NCBI RefSeq assembly: GCF_000003605.2
Contig: NW_003138320.1
Span: 996,302-1,060,301 of the forward strand
Length of the DNA: 64,000 nucleotides
Direction: 5' to 3'
Source: Saccoglossus kowalevskii
Taxonomy: Eukaryota > Hemichordata > Enteropneusta > Harrimaniidae
In this document: positions 1,207 through 64,000 of the stretch, one piece after another
How positions within the stretch are numbered: position 1 is the first letter of the stretch
Layout of the letters: every line of letters begins with the position of its first letter
Program-made: the position numbers and the translations under genes
Notes under the pieces: model-generated
What the model was told of the DNA's origin: nothing
Database searches by the model: none
The model's input: the letters and a program-made list of their open reading frames with translations, nothing else

Positions 1207-16450
<15,244 letters not shown>

Positions 16451-22194: not shown

Positions 22195-25100
22195 ATGAAT
22201 TCAAAGATCTTGTATGCTGTGGTTGTGGTTGGAATCGCTTGGTTTGAAGCTTCTGGACAACTCGTTCCAGTAAGTATGTTTATTATTAAATTATATTACC
22301 AAATATAGAAAACCAAAAACCCCAAAACAATTTGTTACGTTTATGATAATGAATAACAGAGCACCAGAAAAAATCAATATATCAAGAAATTATGGTTAAC
22401 TTTTGAGTAGTTTATTTCAAATAAATATATTTGATGTTGCATTTTCTTTGGAAATATATTCCATGGTTTACTAAATGGTGAAAATTGCTGTTTTTACAGC
22501 GAACCGAGCATAATTTGTGCAATGCAATGAAAAGCGCAATTACGCATGCACACTGTCGTTTCCATTGTTTCATCGAATGAATATTGCCATGTTTGGTGCG
22601 TTTAAAAGTTACTATAAATTATACACTACTGTTTAAATAAAAGATGCATTATCGAACAAACCTTTCTAAATATCCATATCGCTTCTGTAAAGGAAACCCT
22701 TTAGATCGGAATACATGAGATAATCCGGTACATTGGTGTCATTTAGTTTGGCCTACAACAACATTTGTATTTCACGTTTCATTGCTCAATAATTAATTTC
22801 TCGTGTATATTTCTAACTTATAATCAGCTTATCTTCTTTTGTTTTAGGTTCCGAGAATAGACGGTAAGAACATTATATACTGAATGTATAAAACACAAAT
22901 GCATTACAGCGCAGTCCTTACAACGTGCACGAGTCTACACGTATCTTGTAACCTTGTATACTACAAATCATAAACTATTTACATTACTGTTTGGCATACA
23001 TTGACTACATTACTGGTTAATGTCTGATTATAGATCGTCCGACATTGTAAGGTATTATGACAAATATGTAATAGGTAACATTGGTGCATGTGCTGCTCTG
23101 GTGTTTTGCGTTCTGACATTTTTTTGACAGTTAACATACCTCGAAAATTGTTGACGGCCTTGCGCCCACTAGCTCAAAAATGCAAGTTGTTCAATTGAAA
23201 CACCAGTTTCTTTACACATTATTAGTAGTATATGCCAGTGTGCATAATGTTTTTCTTTAAACTGACCTGCCAAAAAGATGCACATCCCTGAAATTTATAT
23301 TTATATTTCTAGACTGGGTTGAATTATTTGATTGCACTGTGCAGACAGTAGACGGAGTTCGGAGATTCGACAATTTCGCCGACAAAACAATACAGCCTCC
23401 AAATATAATCTTTGATCCAGTTTGAAACCTGTTTACATCTAAGTAACATAGGTTTATTGAAATGGATACACGTGTCACAGTGTACCAGAGATTTCAACTT
23501 GGACGATTTTGTGGTTTGTCGGACAATACTATAAATACTGTATATTATTAATGCCCACCAATTATTTGATTTTGGTTTCACCGACAAAATTGTTGAGTCA
23601 ACATAGACGATAAAGTTTAAAATTTAATTGTTGAGCCTTTGTTGTGTAATAGTTCTTTTAATTCATTTCATTGTTGGTCAGATGTCCACAGAGTAGCTCG
23701 GGTTGTGAACGGGCAACCGGCATCACCAAATTCATATCCATGGCAAGCATCGCTGTTGTTGACTGTCAATGGTAACGGCGTGTTGTTCTGTGGAGGAATA
23801 TTAGTTGCCATAGATTACGTGTTAACAGCCGCACATTGTGTTGACGGGTATGTATGCTCCATTTATAATATGAGGTTACTACGAGGATACCTCAAAGTAT
23901 GCACGAAGACAGTACAGCGGCAGTATCGACCGACGTGCTGCGGATTTATTTATCTGATCATTAGATCAAGGGCAGGGCACATTCGGACTATGATACTATA
24001 TTTAAATAATGAACTTCTTTCAATTATGTTCCTTAAAAGGAATTCAATACATCACCACATTCCACACCTACATACACAAGGAGATGGCACTATGTTTTGA
24101 TACATTGCAACATTGATATTTATTTCCGACCATTTTGAACCAAATCTGAAAAGTCAAATGACGTGCATCAAGGTCTCATTATATAACAAAAACCGGCCAT
24201 GCTCGTTTTTGATGCATTTTTTGGACTTGGAATGGCTGCTATTCGACCATCGGACCATGAAACAAATGCACGTACATATGTCCGTTGTCTGGTGCGTACA
24301 GACACATGCTCGGAGTTAATATTTACCAGTAATTATTATTGTTTGTTTAAAAATTAATAAATGATCATATTCATCTAACCTTTTCTCAGTCCCCACTGCT
24401 TAGCATTGCTGTTTTGTGTACACCGACTTACCTCCAATGATTCATTCGTTCGTTCGTTCATTCATTCATTCATTCATTCATTCATTCATTCATTCATTCA
24501 TTCATTCATTCGTTCGTTCGTTCGTCCATTCATTCATTCATTCATTTTAATTATTCAATCATTATTCGCCTTTTTATTTGTGCAATATTTTACACAATAG
24601 TATTGTACATTGTGTATTATTCTATTCCTAGTTACACATCGAGCAATCACTTCTTTAATAAACAAAATGCGTTGTACCACGCTATTTCCTTTTAGAATAA
24701 CAGCGAAGAGAGTGAAAGTTGGTCTTGGTGACCATATATTTAACGAGGAGGAAGGAACGGAGCAAATCATCAGTGTATCGCGCATAACTATAAGCTCGTC
24801 TTACGATGCTGATACGTTCGACAGTGACTATGCTCTTGTGAAGCTGAAAACTGGCGCCACGCTAAATAATTACGTGCAGATAGCAAACTTAGGAAACGTA
24901 TATAAAGCAGATGGAGACTGCGTGGTGACGGGATGGGGAACTTCCGATCCGAATCGTATGTATTGCATCCCAAGGGCTTTGTTATAAGATTAATTATTCT
25001 GAGAGGGAAGATATATGTCATCGCAATAGATCATTTTCCGTTCTCTGCGAGATCACGCGTTATGGGTGAAATAGAACGCAAAAAAACATGATAAGCAAGG

Positions 25101-26933
25101 GTCATGGCGTCGCAGTGGCGTCAAAACGTCGCGCGGGATTCAACAAACGCGAAAGTATTTTGGAGATATTTCCACGTCTCATAATGTGCTTTAATTTTTA
25201 AGAAGTAAGAATATCTCAAAGTCATATTCTTTTCTGAATAATCGGCATTTTAACATTCAAATTCAAAATCAAATATTTCGGTTTTTGCTGCAGACGTCCA
25301 CGCCTTTCACACAATATGCGAGATCTCACAGTTGAACTGAAGATTACCCATTAATTTATTTATTTATTGGTTTCAAAGTTGTTACGTAATATTACAGCAA
25401 TACAATTTTGAAAATAGTAGTCGTACCTCAAGGAAGTTGTTATAGTGTGCGATCAGCTGAATACGCGCCATATATGTACTAGTACATTGATTGACACAAT
25501 CCAGTGCCAATCTAAAGGACGATCATAGAAACCGTAATTCTGAGATGAAATGTTATATATCAATTCGTAATACAATCAGTAGTTTTAGAGACTGACTGTA
25601 AAATAGAATAGCAACTTTATTGACAAAAGAATTTAGATAAGCGACCCTTTTTTATACACACATTCATTGAGAGATAGCTTTTGGGAATTGCAATAGTGTT
25701 CTGTTTAGACAAGATTCTGTTTAGACAAGATTCTGATTAGACAAGATTACTTAGTCATGATATCAGTTACGTGAATTTTAATTTTATCTAATCTGAGTCG
25801 AAGAGTGTATAAATGACCGTTTTTTTTTGTAATACATCTTCTCAGTGTCGTCCATGACGCCTGTCCTACAGGAAGCAACAGTTGACGTCATGTCTAATGC
25901 TGACTGCGCCGACATTTGGCAACATGTCAGCCCTATTACAGATAACATGATGTGTGCTGGATCTACTACATCCGGGTCATGTACGGTGAGTACAATTTAA
26001 TATGACCAGGATGTGAAATTACGCGGTGATTCTAGATTGGCAATTATAGTAACTATCAGGGAAAAAAAACTAATTCATGACGTAACACTCACGTAATTGA
26101 TCTGAAGGTAAATATGTATATTGTGGTAATTTGGGGATCGAACAGGTTTAAATTGTCAATCGACGCAAATTCATAAACGTAAGAATACTGAGCATCTGGG
26201 CGTTATATTTTTTTTTTTACATATTTTAGTGATTCTTTGTCGTTTTACAACATTAGCACTTCCCTTCATTGGTAAAACCAGAATTAATTAATTAATGAAG
26301 TAAATGTTATATGCAATTAATTCAAATGATGTCATTTCCACCTTCAAGAATAAAAAAAATGGCATTTCATAGGTGGTTCCGAAGTTGGTAAATGACATCA
26401 CTACTTTATTCGTCATGTAATTAAATATTCGTAAAGCGTTTAATTCGTACAAATAGGTAAACACGAACAGCGACAAGTGGTTTTATAAACTGTTCTGGCG
26501 TTGACATTATTTTCCAGGGGCTTTATTAAGGCAGGAATTTCGCCACGTCAAAGAAATACAGCAGCGTTTTAACGGCTCTTTATTGTCTGTGCCTGTTGTG
26601 TACATTTCACCTGTGTTCCACTCTTAGTAGCGTTGTATCCCTACGCCATTCTCGAAATTCCGAAGTTCATTATATTTTTCTTTGTATTTCCAGGGTGATA
26701 GCGGCGGGCCATTGATGTGTCTTGAAAACGGTAACTGGGTCGTACATGGCATTGTTAGCTGGGGTGCCAGTGCATGTGGAATTGACGGGGTACCGGATGT
26801 CTATACTCGTATCAGTGCAGTTTATAAAAATATTATGTCGATTACTAGCAAGGCTAGTAATAACAATGGAAACGGAAAAGGGCACAAGGGTAAACGTAGT
26901 CTAATTATCAGAAATATATTTGGTGGAGCCTAA
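22195..26933 (+). CDS. secreted S1A serine protease 1 (chymotrypsin fold)
   Basis: Coding exons: 22195-22269, 22848-22863 (a 16-nt microexon), 23682-23847, 24696-24955, 25846-25985 and 26694-26933 (TAA); phases 0,1,2,1,0; 298 aa. Residues 1-20 are a signal peptide. A short propeptide ends at Arg37, followed by VVNG as the new N-terminus. The triad is His82 (TAAHC), Asp130 (DYAL) and Ser222 (GDSGGP). Cysteines pair as C67-C83, C161-C228, C193-C209 and C218-C247; there is no 1-122 bridge. The S1 pocket has Gly216 (chymotrypsin 189), Ser217 (190) and Asp254 (226), as in crab collagenase rather than trypsin or chymotrypsin. The tail after the catalytic domain is [13 protein letters not shown] followed by [11 protein letters not shown]. 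Introns hold MITEs and an ATTC repeat. Likely a secreted digestive or defence protease; substrate inferred only. Confidence 0.92.
23867..23962 (+). mobile_element. family A element, one arm only
   Basis: Starts 20 nt after the exon 3 donor of protease 1 with GAGGTTACTACGAGGATACC and continues like the copy at 36945-37070 (inverted) through TATCGACCGACG. A matching right arm is not seen, so it is partial. It also keeps an ORF open across the donor, which is an artefact rather than coding. Confidence 0.65.
24441..24546. repeat. ATTC/GTTC tetranucleotide microsatellite
   Basis: About 26 units of TTCA with blocks of TTCG at both ends, in intron 3 of protease 1. Confidence 0.95.
25026..25352. mobile_element. 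MITE family C, copy 1
   Basis: About 325 bp with terminal inverted repeats of about 45 nt (left ATCATTTTCCGTTCTCTGCG; right complementary, near GATCTCACAGTTGAACTGAA). Internal block CGAAAGTATTTTGGAGATAT is shared with the copies at 34737 and 40739. It lies in intron 4 of protease 1, 70 nt after the donor. Confidence 0.75.
25700..25747. repeat. 16-bp tandem repeat x3
   Basis: Three units of TCTGTTTAGACAAGAT, the third with one change, in intron 4 of protease 1. Confidence 0.9.
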
Positions 26934-31750: not shown

Positions 31751-34557
31751 GATACAGGGGGACGATTGTGAAGACATCAAGTTTGTGTAGAAACAAGTCG
31801 TTTTTGAATTAAACTTAAACAAAATTAATATTCGAATATACTAGTTATCATAATGAAAAGAATAACGCTTGCCAGACAACATGTGTTAAATGTATATGTA
31901 TATGTATGGAGTGAACACATTTCGTAAATGGCAAAAGAATTGTTTACACAGTTCTACACAAAACTTGAATCAAAAATCAACTACGTGCTGTATATTTACA
32001 TTTGTTAAGAAAATGCCTGAATCATCCATCCCCGCCATACCGCATAGCAATGGCTATGCTTAGAATGTCACTGCCTTCAAATTGAAAAGGATCGGGCGAG
32101 CGTATCCAATGACGTATACATTATATTACTATTTTCGCGTATGAGAGAATACGACGTATTTCAAATGCAAAGTCTGCGTGAACACATCTAACGTATACAA
32201 ATTATGTATCCACGATCCCCTGTGATGGAGGGACTGTGATGTATCCAAACTCATAGTAGCTGATAAAATTAGGAAGTAGGGTAAGTGAATAACAACGAAT
32301 ATACGACAGGGTACTATGGTAATCTAAGTAAACATGTATTGCGTGCGTGACTCAAACCCACGCACACGTTATGTGACGGCTTGTCTTCACTTTGGCCACC
32401 CAGGATCCCCCAAAGACGCTTAATAACCAAGCTCCGTGAAACCCGTCCAGGTTGACCCACTTATCATAGCGTGGTCAGGAATTGACGCAAAGCTTTTCTG
32501 ATTTGCCTGTACAGATGGCGAGACATCTAAAAACTAACGGTACATCACTTATTGTTAACCAATCACGTACTGGGAGGTTGTTGCTATTGTCTTGATTCCG
32601 TATTTCAACGTTCTACAAAATCAATCATATTCACGTCTACCTACAACCATTGACTGACGTCATAATTTATAATTTCCGTTCTTTCCAATAATACCAGGAG
32701 TTGATTCAAGGATAATTTGTCATCGTTGTCATGGATATGCACGGCTGTCATCAAAAATTCCCATATGTACACATAATTAATTTGATGAATAAATAATTGG
32801 ATCTCGTAGCATTAAAACAGTTCTTGCTTTACGGACAATCCTTAATCCGCTGTATATCGTCGTTGTTACAGGCCTCTCTCTCTGTAAAGTAAGTTTTTTT
32901 TTTATTCACTATGTGTTTTTTGATGCGGTTCAGGAGATTCCTAGAAGTTATGCTGACAATTCGCAGCATTTGTAAATTCGTATTTGTCATTCGGGAAACT
33001 AAGTGTGTTACTTTCATGCGAATAATTTTAAAAATAACTTTAGTGTATTTAATATGGGTGGTGCGGCAGCTTCGAATTTCGTGTAAACAGTGTATTCTAT
33101 AAACGTCGGACACGACGCGCTGTGACGAACACGGCACTTCAAAAGTTACATCGCAGTTGTCCCAGTGAGCAACGTAGTCATGTGTCTCATGTTGTCAGCT
33201 CAGAGTGTCCTGTTGTATATTATCAGTAGAAGACATTCTGGAGTGTTGTTTTATAATTGTCACATATTTTTTTTATTTGTTTACATATTATCCAACTTTT
33301 CGTTTTTTACCCAGTATGACATAAAATTCAAAATTTTTGTCTTGAAAAAATTGTCTTGAAAATACAAAAATGGACATTTTGGAACAATTTCCATAGGAAT
33401 ATTATGTTAAAAAATTAATTACTGAAAAACTGAATTGATAATGTTCGTCGGAATTTTCAAATAATTTCTCGAGAACCCATTTTATAACTACATATACTTT
33501 CTCCATCCTACGAAACCGAAACGAACTAAATGTTGGAATATGATGTGACAGCATAGAAACCAAAGATAAATAATCCTATAATCGCCATTTTCATCGATAC
33601 ATTCATGTTTGGAGCGAAAAGTAGTTCGGAGACCATTTCATCTGGGTTACATTAACAACAACGTGAAGCAAGACCATATTGTGAAATCTGATCATTTGTT
33701 TAATTGGCAACAAACTACCTTATGGCGCTGAGATTATTTTAATTAAACCGGTCCCAGTTTGTAACTTAAAGCATATCCATTCTCTTGTGCCCAAGCTTTT
33801 TGAATATGTTCCTCTGTATTTCTGTGAACACGAGTGAACATCGGGACCAAACTGTATACTATGTATCGCGCACTACCAATCAACATAGGAGTACATAAAC
33901 GGGTTGTTTCACGATATAGGACGAAAAACGTAACACCTAGGATAAAGCGATAATGTAACCACGTCTTCAAATATGTAAATGAGTAAAAATAATATGTCGA
34001 GATTTGGTCCTACACGCATCGTTCCCATGGGACACCGCGACTCGGATCAGGCATAATATAAATATAATATTCTAATTTATTATATTACACATAAAATAAT
34101 ACTGAACGGGGTAATAATATTAACAGTACAGCAATGCGACCAATGACGTAATAGATATATTAACCTCGAATACTTGAATCTAAGCAACTAAATATTTATG
34201 GTAACTATGGATATATTGATGTTTGATCGTGCTGTCTGCGTTGTTGTCAAATAACGACGTCAAAACAATAGTGTAATTAATAATACAGTGGGGATAGAAA
34301 CAACAACACGACGCAATGCAACGCAACGCAATGTATTGTATCAAAGTTGGAAACATTGGTCTAAAACCATCAAATAGTGTTCGTAGTTATTAAGATGTTT
34401 AAAAAAATGATGTGGTGGTACGCCTTTTTCTACTTTTTTTTAATTTCACTTTATTTCACTCATGTCGCTACGAGCACCTGACCACTCTAAAAAAATATGT
34501 GTTTTTGTTTGACCTTAGGTGGAATATCACGTTCAATATTGACATTTATTTCCCTGT
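31751..34557. other. intergenic / upstream region of protease 2
   Basis: No coding sequence is supported. The acceptor CCCTGTAG ending 34560, just before the protease 2 ATG, implies a non-coding upstream exon in or before this stretch. A GTAAGT donor at 32281 is one candidate, without further support. Confidence 0.4.
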
Positions 34558-34568
34558 AGATTCGTGTA

Positions 34569-37500
34569 ATGGATATATTTTACATATTCACCTTGTGTAT
34601 CAGTGCGCAGTTTATTGAAGTTTACGGACAGTTAAACCCAGTAAGTATTCAATGTTAAACTCATACATACTCAAAATATGTAAATCTACGTTTTAGCTTT
34701 TTTGAGAGAGAGGGGTGGTGGGGTTACAACTAATAATATAGACCATTTTCCGTTCACAACGAGATTCCGCGTTATGCGTGAAATCGAACGTAAAAACAGG
34801 ACAAACAAAGGTGATAGCTTCGTAGTGGTCTCAAACATCTCGCGAAAGTATTTTGGGGGATATTTCCATTCTTAATAATGTGCTGTACACATTTGATGAT
34901 GGTCAATTTCGATGAAGTAATGGTATTCAAACGCAATATTTTCTTAAAGAAATTCGAGTTCAAAATCAAATCGTTCGATTTTTGCGGCAGACATTCGGCG
35001 GGCGTCTTTCACGCAATTCGCGAGATCTCGCAGTTGTACGGAAAATCACCTATTGAGGGAAAATGAACGACTATACATAGGGTGAAATAGGCTTTGTAGG
35101 CTCGTTCGAAATTCGCGTCAACGTCAAATTTGTTTAAAGTGACACAGTGCACGTTTCTACGAGTTCACTGTGCAATGGATACTGGGATGATTGTCCTAGT
35201 TGTCTGATAACAACCGACTACGAACAAGGATAACAAAATAGCGAATAAATATGACGTAATCTGACAAAGCATATGTTAATGGCATAGTCCCCGTCAGCTG
35301 AATTAACTTACGTCTTGCCTTTGTATCTACTTTGTTCAATATATATATATATTTACATAGCCGCCAGTTGGCCTTTTTGAATCAAATCACTAAGCACGCC
35401 TAGGGGCACCAATAATCCAGTGAGTTGACATGAGTTATGTCAAAGCCAAGTTTGAACGAAATCAGCACAGGCACGCATGGGAAATGGTTGATAAATCGTT
35501 TAAATGTTGTTTTCGTGTTTTGGGGACAACAGTAGCTGTCAATCTGTAAACAAACAATCAAAAGGGAAGGTAAATCGACGGGCACATGTCGGCCATTATG
35601 ACTTGTCTTTTTACAAATTTCCAACAAAATTTATCCAGGCATGTCCGATTCATTAACGCACTCACGGAAACATATAAGCCTTCATTCCGAAGTACTGATA
35701 CATTACTATAGAAAAAATGGCCCGCCATTTGAACGGCAGTATCATCTAATATAGCATTGTTATGTATGTATTGATTGAGTGTATGAACTAATTAATATTC
35801 ATACCAGCCTGTTATTAAAGTGAAAACATTTCTGAAATTTAAATATTGACATTTCAGCTTGAAAGATAATTAGATATGTTACCTGTGGTAAAATTGCTTA
35901 GCAAGAAGCGACTCTTCGATGCCATGTTGTGTTACCAACTTAGACACTGTCTGCTTCAATTTGGAGAAGAATAAGAGACGGTCAACTTAATTTCGCCAGC
36001 AAAAGTCATTCTCGTCTTAATTTCCATCCACACCGTGATTGGCCGCTCTGCAGCCATGACCATACCTGCTTGACGAATCTACCTTTTCAGCAACACACTG
36101 GCACTTTCAGACCGACTGTTTTAAAATTATGGCAAATGACACAATGGCCTGCCTCTTATTACTGAAGAAATCACCAGCTTTGCCGCTATCGCAGATGGCA
36201 GTGTTAATTACTTGGTCGGTGTGAATACATCATCATCTAACTGCATAGCATATCGTAATATTATCACTTTTTTCTTACTCTCCTTAGACACCAAGAAAAG
36301 ATGCGGAAGGTAAAACATAACATTGTTATTTATAACCATTTGTGACGTGTTATTACATAGCTAGGACAAACTCACCGGAGGTCTACTTCGGCCACGTCAA
36401 TAAAAGCGCCATCTTTACCGAATTTCTGGATCCACCATTGATTGGTGTTTCAGTTACCCCACTTTTCCTGATTTGTAGAACAATATGTACATTTTGTTTT
36501 AATATAAAAATGCATGGCTTCAAAACTTCATATGTTATTATTTGTATCTCTCTATAATAAAGTGTTAATAATATAGATCTTGTGTATTTATTGTTAAACA
36601 TGTTGAGATAATTGTTGTTTTATCGTATTGTAACAATGCATTATGATTTATAACCGTAAAATAAATACGTTTTTTTTTCCAGCATATAGAAATATTCGTT
36701 CAGTGAAATAATATTATATCGTCATCGCTGTACACACCAATGGCGCATGCGCATTCCCCATATTTGTTCGAGCGAATACAACTATAGTTGATAAATTATA
36801 TTATTATACATCTGTTACCGTAACGCCATAAGTTACAGCATGCCGTAATTTTGCGGTATTTTACGGGGTATTTTCATTCTACCATATAAGGAAATGCGAT
36901 TTCCAAATATGGAATGATTACGCGCGTAAGTGTCCTCTAATAATAAAATATATGGACTCAGACAGTACGCCTCGCATCGACCTCCGCTGCGCGTCGGTCG
37001 ATACTCCAGCTGTACTGTCTTCGTGCATACTTTGAGGTATTCTCGTAATAACGTCATATTATTCAAATCAAAATACAATAACAAAAAACATTATTTGAAC
37101 TTCCAAAAAAATACAAAGCTTACCCGTGGTCATTTGCATCACTACCGTTGTCACGTGACAATTATATATTTTCTCTATAATACTATACCAGAGTACCTGT
37201 GTGAATGCATATATTTTGTATTCTATGCAAGCTATGACGGTTAAATATCCTACCGTCAACTAATTGTTCAGAAACTGATATTTTAAAAAAAGGTCATCAA
37301 ATCTATCAGTGTCCGAAATAATATACAATTTGGAAACAAACTTAATTTGTAGAAATTTACGCTGCAGCTCGGTGTATCTCAATTGGGAAAATGCTAGTTC
37401 AAGGGCCCATTATATTTTACCCCGGACGCGTCTAGAACTGGCTGTTGAAGTTTGGTTTGGTTTCCCTATTTTGATCATTGTGTCGTTGTTTTCATCGCTA

Positions 37501-40500
37501 AAAAATACGGGGAAATAAATGCTTATATAATATTATAACAATGACCCTGGTTGAAATCGGGTACACTATTCAGTATTGAAAAACTCAACGTACGTTTCGA
37601 CGGTTTTATGTGTAAACGAAACGTTCTTAGCGAAGTGATGTCTACGCTCTGGAAAAGCCAAAATTGCAAAGTAACAATGAGAATTATATAGTGATTCCTA
37701 CACAATGTACGAAAAGCGTTCGCGTTTAATAGAACGCCTTCGCGTCAATAAAATTAGTATAGTGTCAATTGTATAATAATGAGCATTACACAGTGCTGGC
37801 TCCGTATATTCAGTCGGCATACCTTAATTTCAAAACTGGGGCACCCTTAATTTCAAATCCCACTTACCCCTTCCCTCTGAAAGTGTTTCTTGTGAATACG
37901 CCATTTATCTTCGTAAATGTGACATACTTCTTGGATTCTAGCATCGGGGCAATTTAATCTGTTTATAAAAGTAAGCAGCATGTTTATGAAGATAATTACA
38001 CTTCGCGTTTCATTTCAGTTGATCTAAGCACCCGTATCGTAGGAGGACAAGAAGCAGCCCCCCATGCGTATCCATGGCAAGCGTATTTGATAAAACGTTT
38101 GCAAGGCAACTGGCGTTTCACTTGTGGTGGAATGCTTATCGACAGGGAATTTGTACTGACTGCCGCCCATTGCATAGAAGGGTAAGTGTCCTGCAAACTT
38201 TGATTTCCGCAATAAGTTCAATTTATTTCCTGTTTAACATTAGAGTTGTTTGAATTTATCTCGTATAACAGAATAACTACAAGGATTGTGTGAACAATTT
38301 TGTGATACGAAAGTTGAATTAAATGGGTCAATAAACCTCGGTGTGTTTTCAAGGCATACTGTTGATTGTATTGTATGAATTTTGTCTCGTAAACAGCAAA
38401 CTAATTACTCTCTGAAACCGTGATTATATTATGAATAGCTTCTAATTCAAAAATAAATGCAAGACATTTAAAAAACGGGACATTGTCTTGTAAACTTAAT
38501 TCAATAAATTAGTGGATATCCCATGGTAACGGAAAAATGATGCTTCGTTATATCTCTATATTCAAGCCACACAGTCATTTATGAAACGATACACACAAAC
38601 ACACACAAATATTTCTAATAAATTGTTCACAGACTGAACGCGGATAGATATACATAGTTTCCGAACTACTTTCCTCACTAGGATTAGATACTCATGAAAG
38701 ATTTCGTCACGGTTCTGTTACACACGACAAACACAATCATGTACACTTACAAGATGAGTGATTATTTATGTTACAAATTATTTAGAATTTATTGAGAGTA
38801 CTATTTATTTGTTTTCGTTTTTACATTGGTTCTCATGGAAACTGTCACACTGTTTAAACAAAATGTTGCGATAAATTATATGAGTGTGTTTAAACAATTC
38901 GATTTTGATAAGACAATATTGTCCAATTTTTCATAAAACAAAACTTTTGTTTTAATAGAAGCAAACATAACTATTGGTTCGATGCAAAACTGACAAACTC
39001 TAATGCGCATGCGCAGATTTACCTATACGTACATATTATCAAAAAACTTGTCTTTGCAGAATTGCGTCTAACGAAAACTGCCATAATTATAACTTTTCAT
39101 CAAAATCATTCAAACAAGCCCAAAATTCTTAAAGTTATCGATATAACCAGACTTGTATGTATGTATACCGTAGAGTCTCGAAGCGTAACCTCCAAGTGGT
39201 GCTCGGTGATCACGATATTACAGTTACTGAGGGCACGGAGAGGTTTCACGAGATCAAAAGCATACTGATTAATCCTGACTATGATCCTTACACATTCGAC
39301 GGAGACTTCGCTCTTCTGCGACTCAAGAATGCGGCTACTCTCAACAGTTACGTGGACGTGGTGACTCTGGCTGACACATTCAATGACTCCGGGGAGTGTG
39401 TGATTACTGGTTGGGGTAACGCCATCAAAGATGGTGAGTTATTAATTTTCAATGCACGAGATGCATGTTGTTTTTATTAGACTAGACGTCGTCTATTATC
39501 GTGAGATTTTGACAAATCTACAAATACTAGACTAGTGAATCGGTCTGGAGCATGGAACTATAAACCATTTTTATAGTTCCATGGTCTGGAGGGTTGTGTC
39601 TTACGTACGAGTCAGTCTGCGCATGCGAGTTCCCATGGTAATGTACTGAAGTCATGAAGACAGCGAATCAGTGATTAGAATTTTGTGCCGTCTATGTATT
39701 TACGTTGGCCATTCGTGGGTGCAGACCATTCTTGAGTGCTCTGGGAAGGGCACACTGGGATTCTAGGCTAGGTTCTTATGGTCACCCCATTTGAAAACGT
39801 ATTGAACTTATGTAGAAAACTGTGGTGCATCTCAAATGGGAATAATAATTTGGGGATGATGTGGGAATAAAAAACATTTCTGTCATCTACCAGACATAAT
39901 CAAACACACGCCCATAAACCTTAACAAAAGTTTCCAAAGGTTTTGACCTTCCCACGGAGCCGTGACAGTGAGACGCTCATCCAGGATACAGATCGAGTAT
40001 ATACTCCGCCGTAACAACTTCTACAAGTTCAGGTCTACGGTTTAAACTGAACATACTGAACTGCCTCTATAGAGTGAATGTGGTAAATGTAGGCACGTAC
40101 CATGCAACTACTTTTAGCTAAGTTTCTACATTTGATTTAGTTTCTGCATATAATAGCGTTCACAAGAATGTGATTTAGAAACATAATCTTCGATGGGCGA
40201 TAATAGGGAGTCTCCAGAGCTGTAACAATTGTTCTCACAATTCACCATTCAGTCGCGCCCTCTACAATGTAACGATTATGTGACGTCAATGCGTGCAAGA
40301 GGGACATCCCTCCCAGCGTCGATATTGTTTTGATCTGCTGTCGTCTGCCAACAAAACATACTGCCTACATATTTACTATATTGGCGAACTAAATAACATA
40401 GTTGTATATCAAAATGACGTTGCTCACACCTATTACGTCATTTTGACGTCACAGAAGTGCTTCGCCACCAGGGGGTGTGACTTTGTTATTTTGTTTGTTC

Positions 40501-43500
40501 TTTTCAAACGTTTGGCTGCAGAGAATCACGTTAGGTAATATGTGAAGTACGGTCTATGTTTTTTGACAGGTCCACAGTTTACAGTCCTACAAGAGGCGGC
40601 CGTCACTATAGTTCCTGTGAGTACATGTGAAAGCATATGGAACTCGTTCAATCCGATTACTGATACAATGATGTGCGCAGGAAATGGTGCGCAAGGTTCT
40701 TGCGAGGTAAGCATGTACAGTGTCTTCAAAGATGTCCGTGGACCATTTTGGGTTCACTGCGAGATCCCGCGTTATGTGTGAAATAAAGTAAAAACAGGAC
40801 AAACCAACGTCATAGCCTCACATAGTAGCGTCCGTCGAAAAATCGTATGGGATTCGAAAAAATAATGCGAACGTATTTTGGGGGATATTTCCACGCTCAA
40901 TAATAAGCTATACAATTTTGACGAAGGTAAATTTTAATAAAGTAAGTTTATCTTAACGCAATATTCGATCCGCGCATTACGCGAGATCGGAAGTCTGAGT
41001 GAGCGGGAAGTAACCTATTGGTATTCTGCCGATAAGCACATTTCATCAGAAACTAAGAATTATGTTCGCTGTGCAATATAACAGGATTTTGTAGTGCTTT
41101 TTAAAGTTTTGTATTGTGTTAGTACTGTAGCATACCACTGTTAGGATTTTCGCAATGAACGCTGGGAGTGAAAGTGTATATTTTGTCAAACAGTTACTAT
41201 TATGCTCTCGTGAATGTCTTGCAAAATATGTTTCTATGGTGAAACTATTTTTTCATATATATAAAAAAATGTTTCGGTATTGTTATTAACATTGATTAGA
41301 ATTTTTTTAATAAAGTACGTTAATGGTATTTTTCTGATACATTCAATACATTGGACATTGGACCTGATCCAAATTCGTGCTCGCGAGTTACCGGTGTCGG
41401 CGCTGACATCTGCCGTTTCTTGGAGTTTAAGTTGTTCGCATTAGTGTCCATACGTTAAATGAACGAGTTTAATCAATTTTTATAATTTAATATGCAATTA
41501 TAGATGGAAAATATCACAATTATATTCATACTTTAATATACAATACTATATCATTTGGAAAATATTGATAATGAGAGATGTTCTGAAGATGTTTATATAT
41601 CATGTGACCTGATAATCATTGTCACAATCACACTGTTTTTAGGAATTTGTGCCCTTCAGGCAAAATGTACATATTTTATTACGTAACAAAACACTTCGCG
41701 ATAGGCGTCTTTTGTGGTATTATTTACGGGAAGTATTTGTTCACAATTTTGTAAACTGGCCTAGCAATTCCCATCACCCATTAGACAATGTCACAGCATT
41801 TCGGCTGTTTTTCAACAAATCTAAATCACTCTCGATAATTTTGATAATTTGAAGTTTTGGTAATTTTAAAGGGTATAAACGTACATTCACAAAAATACCC
41901 ATAAAATAGGAAAATTTAGTATATAGCTTTGACAAAAAAGCATTATTTTTCATAATAATGCATTTTTTCGATCTGTGTAACTACATGTGGAAATCCTAAT
42001 GAGATTCAAAGTTTAGTTGACAACTGTCGGTTTTGCAATATTAGGGTTTATCAACTTGTCCATGGAGGCTGCATTTTTTTTATATAAATATTGTATTCAC
42101 TGACATTTAGCAAAAGATTCACAGTTCTGTATCTTTTTCTTACTGATTTGACAACACTGTGTAGTGTAGATGTTTTTTTTTTTGTCGATTGCAGTCAGTT
42201 GTTTGTTTTGTGTTCTTGGAATGTACACAAATCAACAACGGTTAAATAAGTATATTATTTCCACTTAGAAAGCTAAAAGTCAGTTGTCCGAGCCGCAGAA
42301 CTAAAACATTCTGTCAGCCGTCGCCGTTCACAGAAGCGATATGATTTTACACATCGAAATTCAGAATCGCAAGTGTAGACATATTGCATAGAAATGAACA
42401 CTAAATACATCTATCCCAACCAGCAATCGAATCATCAATCTTCATGAGTGATGTAACTGGTATTTCCATCTAATGTATTTGCTTCTATTCCCACTATCAT
42501 AAAACGCTCAAGTGAATGTTGTCAAATTCGTATGTGTGCGTTGCTACAATAAAAAAACAGGAAATACATTCTGGGCTATTACCATTGTCAACTTGAATTT
42601 TTTAAGAGTAGAGGACTATTTATACTGGGGACGCGCCAGTAAGAAATTGTTAAAATTGTCCTATTGGCATACCAAAATTGAAACAGAAAATATTCTGTAT
42701 TCACTAAAAAAAACTTATGTTACGTTTTTATACTTACAACGAACTCGAAACAAAAGAAACAGTCCGATCCAAACAACCTGCGTCCTAGAAAATCGGGTCT
42801 TACCGCCCTTGCGTTTCCGAGCAAAAATACGTCGATGCCAAAAACGACCGATTTTCGCCAAATCTTCTATGATTTTTTGATAATATCATTAATTCAGTAA
42901 AAAACAAAATTGGCGATGTAAATCACTCTCGGCGATAATAGCCAAGGGACTGGATTTTCAAAAACATATTTCATATACAAGGTATATCAAAAGCAAAGTA
43001 TCAAAAGCATAATAATCTCATTTGCATAATTAATATTCATGAGCAATGAAAAACTCTTTTCAAACTGTGCTAAAATGATTTCTTATAGCTAACATTTCCA
43101 ACTACCATGTTTTGCACAGTTTCACTAAAAGGGCGAGTTTTTCATTGCTCATTAATATTAATTCATGCAAATGAAACGATTATTTCAGCCAATCGTGTCA
43201 TGCAACTCCCCCTGGATACGCGTTACTTATCATTATAGCTAATTTGCATATATATGATCTACAAGTTCCTTTCGGTTAACGCAGTTTATGTTAAAGTCAT
43301 CCGGTTACGTTATTCAGTTTAATAAATAGTTTTACATGTTTGGTTAATTAAATGAAATATACCAGTAGATGATTTGCGCTAGAAAAGAAAAATCTTTCAA
43401 AAATGTCAAAACATTGGATTATAAATAAATGACTAACTTTATAAAGTGACTAAAAGCATTGTGTTCTATGACTGTTAAACGCGGAGAATCGAATTCGCTC

Positions 43501-44436
43501 AAGACTGAAACATTTTAGAAATATTCACCGAAAATCAGATAAACGAAATTGTTTAGAAAATCCATTTGAGTGCAATTAGTGTTTAAAACGGGGAGTCGTC
43601 ACCTGCGCATGCGTCAGAATGCCAGAGCGTGTCATTGTTAACAAACAAGCGTCCTCCCGTAAGCTATTGCGTTTTTAGCGTGTGTTGTTATCGTCGCTTG
43701 GGACTCAATTTCCGCGCGTGCGCAGGTGACGACCCTCCCGCTTTAATATTTCGTTCCCAGCTAGTAGGTACGTAAACAAACCGATGTTTTTCCACAGTTT
43801 TAGTGTATCACGTGTGACATTACCTTGCACAACGCAGTCCCCGATAAAACTGTTAGCGATTCCACAGTAGTTAGACATTAATAATTAATATTAATAAATA
43901 AGTTCATTCAGCCATTTTCAGACTTGTAAACAAGTCTACCCATACACAGTATTGAGTACATTGTATTTAGGCAATGTTTAGACGAAGTATGTATACAATT
44001 TACAGATAAATATGTAGATGTTGACGATGACGATTGCGTTTACGTCTAGAAATTGACATGAACCATTGCCATTGCATATATAAGGGAGTTCATATGTGAA
44101 ACGGAAAGCTCAACTCAAATCCCAGTAGTACCTTCTATTATATTACATTTTCCATACTGGTCAAAACGTAAAACATTTTTTTTTATCTTGTAGGGCGATA
44201 GCGGTGGTCCAATGGTTTGTTTTGAAAATGGTGTCTGGGTGGCGCATGGCATTACGAGCTGGGGCACAGAACAATGTGGAGTAGACGGTATCCCGGATGT
44301 TTACGCTCGAATCAGTAGTATACACGCGCAAATCATGTCGATCATTTCTGGTGGTGGTGGTGGCGGTGGTGGCGGTAACGGTAATGGCGGGAATGGTAAT
44401 GGTAATGGTAATGGTAATGGCAAAGGCAAAGGTTAA
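34569..44436 (+). CDS. secreted S1A serine protease 2, paralogue of protease 1
   Basis: Coding exons: 34569-34640, 36288-36309 (22-nt microexon), 38019-38181, 39174-39433, 40570-40706 and 44194-44436 (TAA); phases 0,1,2,1,0; 298 aa. Signal peptide at residues 1-20, activation site Arg37|IVGG, triad His82 (TAAHC), Asp130 (DFALLRL) and Ser221 (GDSGGP). Cysteines pair as C67-C83, C161-C227, C192-C208 and C217-C246. The S1 pocket has Gly215 (189), Ser216 (190) and Asp253 (226), as in protease 1. The tail is nine Gly residues, then alternating Asn-Gly, then KGKG. Exon 4 is 260 nt in both genes. Introns are up to 3.5 kb and carry at least five MITE-like insertions. An adjacent tandem duplicate, probably secreted with similar specificity. 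Confidence 0.93.
34737..35055. mobile_element. MITE family C, copy 2
   Basis: About 320 bp with left end GACCATTTTCCGTTCACAAC and complementary right end near GTACGGAAAATCACCTA. The best preserved of the three copies, in intron 1 of protease 2. Confidence 0.8.
36810..37072 (-). mobile_element. composite MITE (segment B + family A arm), inverted
   Basis: Reverse complement of the arrangement near 14695-15062: the family A arm (GTTATTACGAGAATACCTCA, read on the minus strand) is followed by the GC-rich centre and then segment B. It lies in intron 2 of protease 2. It lacks about 155 bp present in the 14.7-kb copy, including the second palindrome arm. Confidence 0.7.
39551..39583. repeat. perfect 14-bp stem hairpin
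   Basis: CATGGAACTATAAA and TTTATAGTTCCATG are exactly complementary with a 5-nt loop. GGTCTGGAG repeats directly on both sides. In intron 4 of protease 2. Confidence 0.9.
40739..41022. mobile_element. MITE family C, copy 3
   Basis: Left end GACCATTTTGGGTTCACTGC, shared internal block GTATTTTGGGGGATATTTCC, right end near AAGTAACCTATT. It begins about 33 nt after the exon 5 donor of protease 2. Confidence 0.75.
43009..43184. mobile_element. foldback MITE, about 175 bp
   Basis: The left arm (TTTGCATAATTAATATTCAT, then GAGCAATGAAAAACTC) is complementary to the right arm (GAGTTTTTCATTGCTC, then ATTAATATTAATTCATGC). An inner pair, AAACTGTGC and GCACAGTTT, extends the stem. In intron 5 of protease 2. 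Confidence 0.75.
43583..43747. mobile_element. inverted-repeat element with GTCGTCACCTGCGCA ends
   Basis: GTCGTCACCTGCGCATGCG at about 43596 is matched in reverse complement by GCGTGCGCAGGTGACGAC at about 43716; AAAACGGG/CCCGCTTTAA extends the arms outward. In intron 5 of protease 2. Confidence 0.6.
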
Positions 44437-56815: not shown

Positions 56816-56978
56816 TTCAATACAATGTGTAACACCACTATTCCATAATACACTGCCTTAAATTTAGGTATATAAGTACATATGTTTCGCCATTGTTGTG
56901 AATGGTGTGAACCGCTTCCCTGCTCAAATCGCGATTTGTGAGACTTGAAGAACGCTCCAGCAGAATGTGGTTATGGAG

Positions 56979-57522
56979 CACAGTCAGCTGGCTGGCGCAC
57001 ATCTGATATAATAAAATAAATGCGATATTTACTATATGGGGGCCGCCATCTTGAATGACGCATAAAACTAAATAAAAGACAAGTTGTGAAACGCGTTTTT
57101 CAGATTCCTACAAATCAGGAAATCAGGACAAAAATACAAATCTTTCACAAAAATACGGTCCGTTGGGGTTATATTAAGCCAACCGATAACAAAATTCGGC
57201 CGAATTCGTCGTTTTTGTGTGGAAAAATCCCTTGCATACGAACACCTAATTACGCGAAGAACCTAGAACACTAAGTCGGGGTATTTGAAACCGAAATTGT
57301 CATCTAAGCGTTAGGCCGTCGCTGATTGGCTACTGTGCTGGAATGCCAATTTTTAGTTTCAAATACCCCGGCTTAGTGTTCTATGTTAGATTTGTAGGAA
57401 TCTGAAAAACGCGTTTCACAACTTGTCTCTTATTTAGTTTTATGCGTCATTCAAGATGGCGGCCCCATATAGTAAATATCGTATTTATTTTATTATCACG
57501 TGTGCGCCAGCTGACTGTGGTC
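56979..57522. mobile_element. nested foldback element
   Basis: Outer arms of about 135 nt (56979-57115 and 57388-57522) are almost perfect inverted copies (e.g. CGCCATCTTGAATGACGCAT). Inside them, a second inverted pair lies at 57263-57291 and 57356-57385 (CACTAAGTCGGGGTATTTGA and its complement). No ORF of note. The close arm identity suggests a recent insertion. Confidence 0.85.
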
Positions 57523-57814: not shown

Positions 57815-60800
57815 GTTTTGTTTGGTGTTTTTTTTGTTTAAATGCCTTACCGAAATGGTTTTAATTTAGAATGCCGTACCGAAATGGTTTTAGTTTAGAA
57901 CGCCGTTCCATGTGTCAGATTAGTTTCGTTCTGTTTATTTAACCATGATTTAACTAACGATTTTGTATTTTTCAGTTCAAAATATTTAAGTCAACAGTGT
58001 TAATTTATTAAGTTATGGAAATGTATTCACAGTGACGTCACCATATCTCGATTGTAATTATGTTGCCTTTTTATGTAATAAAACATTAAGTTATTTTTTT
58101 TCACAAAAATCCGTGTAGCTTCTTCATTTTAAAACATGGACTATTGTTGCTCTGTACAGCATCGTGTTGATGAATGATATGAATTGTGATTTATTATTTA
58201 TGAAACGTGACAGTGGAATCACCCAATTAACAACAATGTAAATACAGTGAAGCCTCTTCATTTTAAAACTGCGTATCATAAAACGCCCGGTGACCAGACA
58301 AAATATCCACCCTTCTCCCAACTTCGGTCAGTGTGTTTATTTCAAACACCGTGTTTGACGAAGTCATTTCTAGTACCTTATAGGTCACGCTACTTCTAGT
58401 GATTCTGTTACGTATATGAGTGAAAGTGACGCTGTTCATAGCGTCGTTGGTGTTTGAAAACAACTATTTGGTTTGAGAGATTTTACATATTACTAATGAC
58501 GTACGACTGCATATCACCTACACGCAGTACGTGTTTACTATAATTAGACATAGTCTTTACCTTGCCGTTTATTCGGTGTTATTTGCTTACTTTACTTCCT
58601 ATGTCGACAGCAACTATGGGTTACATATGTTTGTAGCTTTGTACGACATTGCTTCCACACACTCTACGCCATTTTGACGACAGAGTGAGCTTGTTGCCAG
58701 AGGGCGTGATTTGCATTACATCACACTCATGTCGACATGAGAGATATTTTCTCATTGTTGCGTAGACGCCAGAGCACTTGGTGTGATCATTTCTTGCTAT
58801 GCTGTGTTTCAAAACAGTAAAAGTTATACACATAATAAATATATAAATCTGCACACATGGGTTCATTCATAAGGTGAATGGTGAATGGTTTCGCTGTCCT
58901 TTGTATTTCCATGTAATCACACACGTGGTGTTAATTTCTAACGAAAACCACCACGTTTCAAGCTTTAAATACTAGTATTCAAATTTAATCTGCCCTCACC
59001 CCTTTCTTGTCTGGTGCGTCACTCAGTTACCTCCATGCTCAGATTGTCGCTCATCCAGACGCATATGCTTAGCGAGCTTCCGGTATTCACTATGGCTACC
59101 TGCGTGTAAACACGTTTAACAAATACATGTACATATGTGCAATGTTTTTGTTGTTTTTTTCTATACTTAATTACACTCAATCATTCTGACACAAAAAATA
59201 CTTAAATAGCGAATGTGAGCTAGTTACCGTCATTTCTCCTTACTAAGAAATTTGTTCTATGTTTCGACAAGTGCAAAACTCGGAGTCGAAATCATGGTGG
59301 CGCTGTCGCATTCTTATGACATTGACCAATACTACGGGGGTAGGTGGCAAATCAGAGTTGGCCATAATGGTACACTGTCTTGTGCCGAGACATAATCCAG
59401 CAAATAAAACGGAAAACTATGCTACATATGAGCAATCATTGTGGAAGTATCCGACCTTATGGTTTTGTAAACACTTTTAATAATCTTTACAAAGCTACAC
59501 ATAACTAGGGGTGGTTTTCCCGGGTTGTGTTTTGTCCCACACTTGTGTCTGGCACATAAATCGGGTTGTCACTCACACATACGCATATGCCGACCTTCCA
59601 GCATTTACAGTGGATGAGGTAGAGTTATAATGACAGTTTTATTAATTGACTTGCAGCTGATTCAAAAACACGTGTCCAGTGGCATTGTATACTTATTCGC
59701 ACATCAGAAGCCATTATTACGGGTCTCAAAAGATGCAACTATGGAGTGTATAGTGAGAGTGAGAGAATTACGTCCGACGCACGTCCTTGTTTCAGGCCAA
59801 CAATTAAAGGACGCTTTAGTTAGGGACTAGTTAGTTAGCGTCAAATTGGAGTTGACCTTGGGAAAAAAAGAAAGAATAAATTATTCAAAAACAAATATTT
59901 CAAAATAAGCGGCGATTTGTACTTCCACACGGTATCTGTAAGGTCATATGTAATTACACCATACTCCAACCTGAGTCCCATTTGTGAATATTTTACACAG
60001 TCCAAATTCAATAATTATTTGTGGAGTAAGTCGCCAATTCGAATTGGTTGTGTAGCGATATTTTTTTCCTGAGTTGCGCCCTCTTTCGATGCTTGGTTTA
60101 CGTTATTTTCAACGATAGAGGGCTCTAGCATAAATCGGCGAGATTTTGTTGGCCTGTGCACATTATATAGAGTGACTGTGGCTTGTGTCACAGTTCATAA
60201 TGCGTATAGGAGTTTTGATATTATTGTAATGTGGTACACACACTTATCACGGTTAGTTCACAAGATTTGTCGTGTGACACCGTCGCCTGGTTCAATCTCG
60301 GACCACTAAAGAACAGACTAGCGAGACAGTGCTAAATGTACACAGTAGTATTAGAAGTATGCAACACTATTTCTATGTTTATTCTCCATGTTTCTGTAAT
60401 TGTAAAAAAAAACGAGAACAGAGATAATTAAAATGTGTGCTTCCTTAAAATATACTGAATATTAAATGACTTCAATCACTTAGTTGCGTGAGCATATCAA
60501 GTCCACAAAAACTACGATGCGTTCACACACAGTCCCTCTATGATAGAGGGTGTGGTTCACACAAAGGAACACTGTCGACACCAACACCGTCATTCGACCT
60601 TTATAGAAAAAGTTCGAGAAATTCTTGGAAAAGTCGAAATATCACTATAAATTTGCTCATTATGTATTATTAAATATCGTAGAAGAAAGTAGGAAATATT
60701 AAAAATGTCGCCCTCGTCCAAAAAATGACCGATTTGAACAAAAAAGACGAAAGTTCAAAACTCACAGATTTCATTTCCGCTTAGATCTGAAAGTTTGCGT

Positions 60801-62176
60801 GTTCGTCGGCACTACGAAAACACGAGAAACAAGTAAATGCAAGTGCGTTCAGAAATCGTCAGGTAAACGTGTGTCAAAAAACCACCAGCACGAATCCTAT
60901 CCAGGCACTTGTAATCCCGAATTCACACTTACAACAATAAGCGTTGCTGATCTGTTCTTTAGTGGTCTACGGTTCAGTCCCTCTATCCCCGGTCTGGAAA
61001 TGACTAGCGTTCTTTTGTCTCGAACCGTGTTGCCGGTGAACAAACCGCTCACATACGGGCCGAGGGAGTCGTGAAGACAGATAGATTACGATACCGTCAG
61101 AATATTCATTAAAATCGGCAAATTCACCGTCATGGAAAGCGATACCTCATTGTATGACTTAACTTTGACCTCAAATTAAGACAACTACAACGTAAACAAA
61201 ATTAGCACTATGAAATTTTGGGGGTTTTAACCCTGATAAGTATCAAAACCAGCCTACCAACTCACAAACATTCAGTTCCTACCATGTACACATTAATATC
61301 GGGAATTGTGTTCATCCTCTAGTTTTAATAGGGAAAAAACAACGTGTGATATTTCTGATTCTTGGGGGCTCATAATAATTCAAGTAAATTATACAACATC
61401 TACTGACTTTATTCGATACACCAGTAAAAAACAATGCTTCAATTTTTGTATATAAATGATTTTATTAAACACAGAATAGCGTACATTGTCATTTCAAAAC
61501 GTCTCCATTTGCATTTACGATCGAAAAGAGCATCCATAAAAATCGCAAAAATTTAACATTCATAAAATGCGGTGTGATAAAATTTTTATTGTTATGTTTC
61601 GATCATAAAATGTCAAAATCGAAGACAAATATTGGTTTCGCGCCATGAAGAAGGGTAGATAAAATAGAGTTCATTTCAATTACTCCAAAAGTTAAACACG
61701 AACAATTTTTTGGTAAACTAAAGGTATGAAATTTTGTTGCGAAAATGTGCCGCTGCTGGTAAAATAGATAAATTAAAAACTGCTCACCGGCTAAAATATG
61801 ACCTTATACAGATACCCTGATTAAAAAACTGTGTGAAAAAGCTCGAATTCTGGAATAAACAACTAAAAAAACACATAGCAATGACGATGTCAAAAATGAC
61901 TGTGTATTGATCACGTGACAATGCTTTGCGCATGCCCGCAACCCACCTTAGCCAGGGAAGAAGACCAATTCACATCTAGTACAATGACCGTTTCCAGACC
62001 AGGACTGTGGTTCAACATATGTTTATTTTCCCGTTTCGGATACCATATTATAACAATTGTGTCACACCTATTGTTTCGGGCGTCCGAACAGCTAAAGATG
62101 ACGTGCCTTTAGACGTGCCGAAGGTTACACAGCCGAGTTCGAGTTCATTGATAGTGTCATTTGAGTCTGCCTTACA
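57815..62176. other. intergenic, no gene recognised
   Basis: Contains a duplicated ACCGAAATGGTTTTA motif at about 57848-57895 and a TTCAAACACC / GGTGTTTGAA inverted pair at about 58340-58457. A GC-richer + strand open stretch at 62007-62180 overlaps the end of the RAG1-N-like gene. None is convincing as a gene. Confidence 0.4.
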
Positions 62177-63190
62177 TCATCGAGGTAAAACAAAAGAATC
62201 TGACATTTGGTTCCCAAGCTGCTCACCAGTGTTGGAAATGGAAGCCTGGATTTCTTCTGTCAGACTAGAAATTTTTCTCTTCAGACTTTTTCTTTCACGC
62301 TGTAGATTATCTGCCTTCTCTTGAAGTGCCTTGCTGGATAGACGATCATTGCGAGTAAATATACTAGTGGATGTAACCGTTTCCGATATATCTCTGGATG
62401 TCATTGATGCGAGGTCTCTTTTATATACCCGACAAACACTGCACTTGTTGGAAGTAGCAGAAACGAACAACTGACACTTGACATGCCTTACAGTTGTAAA
62501 TGTAAAATGAGATTTTTCTTCATACGCAGACAACCCTCCTTTGGAATTAGAAAATGTGGCAAGTCCTCCTCCTATTGAGCGAGCTCTGCATAGACTCTCA
62601 AAGCCAGGGTTTCCAACACAGACAACATACTGGTCAACGAAGGAAAGTAATTGACGACATGCATTTGTGTCAAGCCTTGCAGGAAATGTTTCAAATAAGA
62701 GACCTTCTGTTAAACTCTTACCATGTACTTCAACACTCCACTCCCCATTTACATGTATTTCAACACGCTTGGCCACTTGGCGAAAGTCCTCATTTAGCTG
62801 AATGCAGATTACTTTTCCTTTCGCAACTTTTACAGTAAATTGACAGGCCTTAGCAGACTTAACAACGGACTCTATAACATCTTGCTTCTCATTTCCAGCA
62901 GGAGTGAAACACACTTTGCATGCAAGTGAATGAGAATGAAATGTTAGAGTTTCGAGACACAACTCCTTCTTTGTCTTTTTTTTCTTCCATCTCACCAACT
63001 TGATTCGACATGTTCCGCATATAAAAGGAGGATGTACATTGCCATCATCTTCGCTCACATTAATATGCAGGGCATGCTGAATGTCTTTTGAGAATTTATC
63101 TTTGTTCACAGGTTGACGATCAGCTGGAATAGCATTGCTCCCACCACACAGTCGACATAATTTTCTTAAATTTTGTAAATGAAATTCCAT
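62177..63190 (-). CDS. RAG1 N-terminal-like zinc-binding protein, 337 aa
   Basis: Intact minus-strand ORF. I choose ATG 63190 (MEFHLQNL) because a splice-acceptor-like TTGTGTTACAG lies 3 nt upstream; an in-frame ATG 57 nt earlier sits in that intron-like tract. Residues 12-94 hold C12-x2-C15 (CRLCGG), H53-P-x3-C58-x2-C61 and H85-x-H87-x3-C91-x2-C94. Vertebrate RAG1 (from memory) has CRICG, HPTEFCHNC and HPHTPSCDIC with the same spacing inside each cluster, preceded by a similar [LF]-x-I-[ND]-V-x2-D pattern. A Lys-rich block at 69-75 could bind nucleic acid or importin. Residues 178-260 form a Cys-containing region (CVGNPGFESLC, later CSVC), and 284-316 look like a coiled coil. No RAG1 core or RING is present. 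It may be transposon-derived. A good GTGAGC donor at 62226-62221 suggests a longer spliced form. Confidence 0.8.
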   Translation of the reverse strand: MEFHLQNLRKLCRLCGGSNAIPADRQPVNKDKFSKDIQHALHINVSEDDGNVHPPFICGTCRIKLVRWKKKKTKKELCLETLTFHSHSLACKVCFTPAGNEKQDVIESVVKSAKACQFTVKVAKGKVICIQLNEDFRQVAKRVEIHVNGEWSVEVHGKSLTEGLLFETFPARLDTNACRQLLSFVDQYVVCVGNPGFESLCRARSIGGGLATFSNSKGGLSAYEEKSHFTFTTVRHVKCQLFVSATSNKCSVCRVYKRDLASMTSRDISETVTSTSIFTRNDRLSSKALQEKADNLQRERKSLKRKISSLTEEIQASISNTGEQLGNQMSDSFVLPR

Positions 63191-64000
63191 TGTCTGTAAC
63201 ACAATATATATATAAATAATTAACATGAAAACAAAATGATAAACCATCTTTTACTTGCGATTTTAAATTGATAAATTGTGGAGGTCATAACATTTTTCCC
63301 CATGAATAATCCACTACCACAGAAAAATTGAACAATTTAATTTATTCCATGCATGTATGTATTTATTAGCACATGGAGGTACCTCCATGATTAGCAAGAT
63401 TTCTATAAATTAGGACATGTCAATTTATAAAACAAATAACTAGCCAATTACATCTTTTTGCCTCCATGCCAATTTAAAACTATATTTAAAATTTAAAGGT
63501 AAAAATAATAAAATGCAGTCAGAACATTTTCCTGAAAATGCTGATCGACACAAAGCGAAAGGCAGTGGAAGGAAACCTTTATGAGCCAGGCCTCATGATT
63601 TTCTGCCAAAGTCTGCGTTTAAAATTTCTTTCCATATTTATTTTATTCTGGACCAAAAACGGAGTGGATTTCTTTGTCGTATTTAGGGCATCGTCAAAAT
63701 GTGTGTGTAACCTCAGATTAGTATGAGGTGTAACTGAGTTACTGAGTAGATTTTTTTACAAACCTATTTTGTCGAACTGAAAGTTACAATGCAGATTTGA
63801 AACGAAAATCGTATAATTTCTTAGCAGCCTACAAAGCGGGCAAAATACCACCGCCTGGAAATACAATTTAAAATAACAGCGCGATTATTTTATAGTATGC
63901 CCTTTGAAACAACAGGCATTTATTTTCACGAACAACTTTAACGAAACGATTGCTCGAAAAATAGAAAATGCAGCTAATAATATATTAACATTTAAATATG
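63191..64000. other. 5' flank of the RAG1-N-like gene
   Basis: AT-rich, no coding sequence recognised. An upstream non-coding exon for the minus-strand gene may lie here or beyond the window, implied by the acceptor-like site at 63194-63204. Confidence 0.35.

Follow-up and report, generated by a model that had tools for sequence, protein, structure and literature searches.

A RAG1-type N-terminal zinc module on the truncated half of a P-type transposase lineage in Saccoglossus kowalevskii

A stretch of 64,000 nucleotides from the Saccoglossus kowalevskii genome (contig NW_003138320.1; the whole stretch is called the window) carries on its minus strand an open reading frame (ORF), P0001, that encodes 337 amino acids. 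P0001 represents the N-terminal half of a transposase from a P-type lineage, cut off before the catalytic domain, with a RAG1-type zinc module at the position where P elements have a THAP domain. The preliminary description of the window had presented an intact ORF with three Cys/His clusters, spaced as in RAG1, as a stand-alone protein related to the RAG1 N-terminal module, with a C-terminal coiled coil and with neither RING finger nor RAG1 core. The three clusters are all there with that spacing, the frame has no internal stop, and the sequence makes the coiled coil likely. The term stand-alone describes the window locus correctly but not the family, in which the same module heads P-superfamily transposases. 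The features of the ORF are as follows.

62177..63190, minus strand: P0001, 337 amino acids, no internal stop, probably one coding exon.
63194..63215, minus strand: splice-acceptor-like stretch directly 5' of the ATG; its TTACAG ends three bases before the ATG.
62900..63190, minus strand: RAG1-type N-terminal zinc module, residues 1-97 (Pfam RAG1_imp_bd; hhalign to a RAG1 fragment).
63146..63157, minus strand: cluster 1, C12-x2-C15, kept in paralogous loci L009, L010, L012 and L013.
63008..63034, minus strand: cluster 2, H53-P-x3-C58-x2-C61 (motif reading).
62909..62938, minus strand: cluster 3, H85-x-H87-x3-C91-x2-C94 (motif reading).
62432..62485, minus strand: second Cys/His group, in the middle region, H236-x2-C239-x10-C250-x2-C253 (motif reading).
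62237..62338, minus strand: probable coiled coil, residues about 285-318 (sequence; weak bZIP-like Pfam matches; aligned in paralogs).
62177..62194, minus strand: truncation point; family homology runs to F333, then four more residues and the stop, where relatives continue into the catalytic domain.

No open frame in the window is longer than that of P0001, which spans 357 codons from stop to stop; in 100 mononucleotide shuffles the maximum was 201. By eye, an acceptor-like AG also lies shortly 5' of an ATG in four paralogs (L009, L012, L013 and L017), which makes the start of P0001 plausible. In the middle region, the Cys positions recur in most of the paralog rows that cover them and the His in about half (by eye).

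The three clusters of P0001 have the same order and the same internal spacing as those of the RAG1 N-terminal zinc region, known as the central non-core domain, RAG1_imp_bd or the Chapa domain; the loop between clusters 1 and 2 is shorter in P0001, and neither the RING nor the catalytic core was found. Excerpts of published work describe the RAG1 central non-core domain as binding two zinc ions and preferring double-stranded DNA (PMC3124419), and the three N-terminal zinc motifs as kept in many protostome RAG1-like proteins (PMC7204232). The full cluster pattern arose in none of 300,000 shuffles of residues 1-101. When these residues were compared with Pfam, RAG1_imp_bd scored 29.2 bits against a cut-off of 23.3 (E 9.1e-7). 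The preliminary description had proposed a profile comparison of about this stretch, and RAG1_imp_bd came out ahead of zf-AD, the ZAD family; no other zinc family matched clearly better, and similarity to RAG1 was evident. The Smith-Waterman score of P0001 with a mouse RAG1 fragment was 78, a value reached by 0 of 5000 shuffles and by 2 of 5000 when Cys and His were held in place. Furthermore, hhalign of P0001 and two paralog zinc pieces against the same fragment gave a probability of 82.5 (E 9.8e-6) over 91 columns that include all three clusters, a result not independent of the Pfam match because P0001 is part of that alignment. In a phmmer search with residues 1-101, the best solved structure was the RAG1 chain 21wb, at an E of only 0.016. 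Two paralog pieces matched RAG1_imp_bd in the register of P0001, with E 0.0075 and 0.0021, below the cut-off. Within the clusters, H87, C91 and C94 of cluster 3 are common to P0001, L009, L010, L012 and RAG1; H85 is common to P0001 and RAG1 and is not found in those three paralogs. The His of cluster 2 is Tyr in L009, L010 and L017, Leu in L011 and His in L012 and L013. The data support the view that residues 1-101 are related to the RAG1 N-terminal zinc region.

Neither RING nor RAG1 core was matched in P0001 by Pfam (the whole protein, and for RING also two pieces), as the preliminary description had stated. Its suggestion that the genome be searched for further copies and for RAG1-core relatives bore out in the first part only, as described below. 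The core family PF12940 gave 0 matches in the S. kowalevskii genome in a search run without a positive control, so that its absence is not shown. A genome-wide RAG1_imp_bd search likewise returned 0 matches from 6 candidates, with no control giving a signal and even P0001 unlisted at the threshold. NCBIfam contained nothing of note for P0001. No relatives were found in viral contigs (also with a two-row alignment), genome contigs or phages; these collections are viral and prokaryotic, and the searches therefore say little. The phmmer match of P0001 to the antifreeze repeat protein 4p99 (E 2.4e-8) was rejected, being the sum of four weak repeats of which none is significant singly.

The nature of the lineage emerged from its paralogs. 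When the S. kowalevskii assembly (572 Mb in 4830 contigs) was searched with P0001, there were 15 matches. One is P0001 itself, and the remaining 14 are spread over 12 loci, with 38% identity in the best. Outside the window, six loci have matches to the zinc module (L009, L010, L011, L012, L013 and L017), those of L012 and L017 being weak or partial. At four of the six, L009 to L012, the module match is followed on the same strand by a catalytic domain, the two starts being 1.1-1.3 kb apart, and 3' transposase exons follow in L009, L010 and L012. In L013 and L017 the catalytic domain was not seen in the fetched stretches, which hold 221 and 3493 N, respectively. All six loci are broken by frame changes or stops or are cut by gaps. 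Several of the 14 matches run on into a long ORF, among them the 610-amino acid ORF of L008, which matches PF21787 (TNP-like_RNaseH_N) at E 1.1e-27, and the 308-amino acid ORF of L003, which does so at E 2.3e-19. Among solved structures at E <=0.1, the sole match of the L008 ORF was the P-element transposase 6p5a (E 0.0048). Since paralogs carry the module as the head of P-superfamily transposases, the direct ancestor of the P0001 ORF is, on the sequence evidence, a P-type transposase.

As in P-superfamily transposases and THAP9, the paralogs have a coiled-coil stretch and then a TNP-like RNase H domain. They differ at the head: PF21787 has 13 matches in the genome, equal to 12 places, and at 4 of the 12 the RAG1-type zinc module is in the place of THAP, while THAP is near none. 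The genome holds 70 THAP matches, none of them near any of the 13 catalytic matches; on the three contigs that have both, the two kinds of match are separated by about 177 kb, 252 kb and 2.1 Mb. P0001 itself gave no THAP match and, unlike THAP9 and the P-superfamily transposases, is without a catalytic domain. In a FastTree phylogeny of 13 catalytic pieces, L014, L027, L029, L030 and L031 split from the rest with a support of 1.000, and the four zinc-bearing copies fall in the other part of the tree with L015, L018, L020 and L028, in which no convincing zinc module was seen. By eye, L014 (at 2583-2792), L027, L031 and the truncated L016 have a short basic stretch at the start that is neither THAP nor the zinc module. 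Perfect 30-base inverted repeats at 1614-1643 and 9526-9555 frame the P-type transposase gene of L014, with an end-to-end length of about 7.9 kb; an 8-bp target duplication is not obvious at these ends.

In the window copy, residue 333 is the last with homology to the relatives, and only four more precede the stop. In L009, L010 and L014, the frame or the alignment continues past this point without an intron. The catalytic half has left no recognizable remnant in the 64 kb: in a tblastn search with paralog exons, the best match outside the ORF had an E of 0.79, and none of 8 out of 106 minus-strand pieces downstream of P0001 that were compared with Pfam held a transposase. The end of P0001 right after the coiled-coil stretch, together with the missing catalytic remnant, identifies it as a truncated N-terminal half. 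When P0001 and 800 bases upstream were used as a DNA query, no second copy was found in the genome, the one candidate being the query itself.

The lack of a catalytic domain led to the proposal that P0001 is a repressor or a host DNA-binding gene. The zinc module would bind specific DNA, like the THAP domain of P elements, and the coiled coil would pair two P0001 molecules; the protein could then repress related elements as a sequence-specific dimer or serve as an element-derived host DNA-binding gene. The KP and 66-kDa repressors of the P element follow this logic, and so do P-derived neogenes. Excerpts of PMC7776569 describe both P-element proteins as repressors: the 66-kDa protein retains THAP and is without the C-terminal third, and KP has 207 amino acids. 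A KP-type repressor combines a DNA-binding domain and a dimerisation stretch without a full catalytic domain. P0001 has the zinc module and no catalytic domain, and its putative dimerisation stretch is judged from the sequence only; it differs from the two repressors in its zinc domain, and repression by P0001 would follow by analogy. P0001 is intact and has a single DNA copy, whereas its six zinc-bearing relatives are all broken or incomplete. That P0001 works as a dimeric DNA-binding repressor, or as a domesticated neogene, is considered probable.

A number of observations weigh against this account. With the whole of P0001, RAG1_imp_bd scores 19.4 bits, under its cut-off and under the 22 bits of zf-AD, and only the cut piece passes. 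The paralog zinc pieces score 15.4-18.1 bits with RAG1_imp_bd, all below 23.3. When the three zinc pieces were used as a profile against the PDB, 2yt9 (E 0.034) preceded RAG1 21wb (E 0.05), and zif268-type fingers followed from 0.12. The coiled coil is backed by its sequence and by weak matches only. Terminal repeats flanking P0001 were looked for, and nothing convincing was found. Moreover, the nearest relative, at 38% identity, is too far for the ratio of nonsynonymous to synonymous substitution (dN/dS), and a piece stranded only recently could have an intact ORF as well.

The last point leads to the best surviving alternative, that P0001 is a decaying fragment with no function, the remainder of a P-type element after loss of the catalytic half and so far free of stops. 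The state of the six zinc-bearing paralog loci agrees with decay, as do repeats close downstream of P0001 and the loci L013, L016 and L019, which are also without a catalytic part in the fetched stretches (221 N in L013 and 2326 N in L019). However, there is no close sister copy to mark recent movement, yet 337 codons are intact, and all Cys and His of the clusters are kept. A functionless fragment is regarded as rather unlikely.

A relationship to ZAD transcription factors was also considered, with the RAG1 likeness arising only via a shared ancestral fold. The zf-AD profile matches residues 11-68 of P0001, at 25.6 bits with residues 1-101 (cut-off 28) and, in the whole protein, at a score that is below the cut-off but ahead of RAG1_imp_bd; it is also ahead for one paralog piece (L003; E 0.00038). 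The profile comparison proposed in the preliminary description is to that extent limited. The mouse RAG1 fragment itself matches zf-AD at 18.8 bits (E 0.002), in the same register as P0001, so that clusters 1 and 2 of ZAD domains, P0001 and the RAG1 fragment align in one register. Against a ZAD relationship, RAG1_imp_bd gives the higher score with residues 1-101 and is the only family above its cut-off, the zf-AD match stops before cluster 3, and the Grauzone ZAD fragment has no RAG1_imp_bd match and an hhalign probability of 6 with the zinc-piece alignment. Such a relationship to ZAD transcription factors is improbable. Because the RAG1 fragment matches zf-AD in the same register, clusters 1 and 2 may be a fold common to ZAD and RAG1, with cluster 3 the RAG1-like part.

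It is quite improbable that P0001 is the 5'-most coding exon of a full-length gene, the catalytic exons having diverged beyond recognition or lying outside the window. The acceptor-like stretch 5' of the ATG would suit such a gene, as would a GTGAGC resembling a splice donor within the 3' end of the ORF, but 62 kb downstream within the window contain no catalytic match, and in the three paralogs named above the frame or alignment crosses the end point without an intron. Least of all does P0001 appear to be a stand-alone precursor of the RAG1 N-terminus like N-RAG-TP of Aplysia, described in part of PMC8355894 as entirely RAG1 N-terminal-like sequence: in spite of the similarity of P0001 to RAG1 by RAG1_imp_bd and hhalign, this is highly improbable, since in the paralogs the same N-terminal half is followed by a P-type catalytic domain and the stand-alone state looks derived here. 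P0001 is not a stand-alone ancestor of the RAG1 N-terminus, even though its zinc module is related to that of RAG1.

The truncated P-type half with its RAG1-type module bears on the origin of the RAG1 N-terminus. The module has been published on Transib-derived RAG1 and on Chapaev. In excerpts of Kapitonov and Koonin 2015, it is named Chapa, and both Chapa and the RING finger are stated to occur in no known transposable elements outside the Transib superfamily, in which Chapaev is included (PMC4411706). N-RAG-TP of Aplysia, according to second-hand descriptions (PMC8355894, PMC2996935), is made up of sequence like the RAG1 N-terminus; it resembles P0001, compared by description only, in being a RAG1 N-terminal-like protein of an invertebrate mobile element (PMC8355894), and it may already contain a P-type transposase. 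The copies in S. kowalevskii have a RAG1-type module ahead of a different transposase superfamily, on one strand in one genome. In the titles and abstract openings of the literature searched, the RAG1 N-terminus was not linked to P-type transposases, which is not proof that the link is unpublished; nor was the link seen in parts of P-element and THAP papers (PMC7776569, PMC10027918) and of papers on RAG-like genes (PMC9885083, PMC8289069). A tentative scheme is that the RAG1 zinc module is a mobile DNA-binding head that was swapped among animal transposases, namely Transib-derived RAG1, Chapaev and, in THAP's place, the P superfamily, with P0001 a repressor kept by the host and P-type elements a candidate donor of the RAG1 N-terminus; the P-type lineage and RAG1 may equally have acquired the module from a third source. 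If other animals show the same arrangement, the RAG1 N-terminus has a broader source than Transib and Chapaev, and the original job of the module, perhaps the binding of element ends as by THAP, becomes testable. The module may also link the zinc domains of ZAD and RAG1.

Two repeats lie downstream of P0001, the first of them resembling a miniature inverted-repeat transposable element (MITE).

60975..62008, strand not applicable: noncoding interspersed MITE-like repeat, beginning about 170 bp past the P0001 stop.
60301..60967, strand not applicable: second short repeat with 22-nt inverted ends.

The MITE-like repeat measures about 1.03 kb in the window and 1.15 kb in copy L035 and has a 26-base terminal repeat, the terminal sequence being shortened here at the 62008 side. 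A DNA search with a 3-kb query gave 74 other matches, all in this repeat, among the 40 of 145 candidates that were scored. One of its ends is similar to an end of the P-type locus L016 with an alignment score of 35, the best of 2000 shuffles being 27; the likeness to the L014 end is weaker, with a score of 19. Because of these ends, the repeat may be a P-type element of the non-autonomous kind; that it lies close to the P0001 ORF may be chance.

Elsewhere in the window, exons of trypsin-like serine proteases with AAHC and GDSGGP motifs were recognized by eye on the plus strand at 23621-26930 and 37958-44433; they probably belong to two genes, one of which has a Gly/Asn-rich tail. A short interspersed repeat occurs at 36801-37067, 23861-23944 and 14686-15067, with 90-94% identity in parts. 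Additionally, a foldback repeat at 56976-57522 has arms about 91% identical over 141 bases, and a 102-base stretch at 58521-58622, which recurs at many genomic places with about 98% identity and is probably a young repeat, has a weaker copy at 32248-32345.
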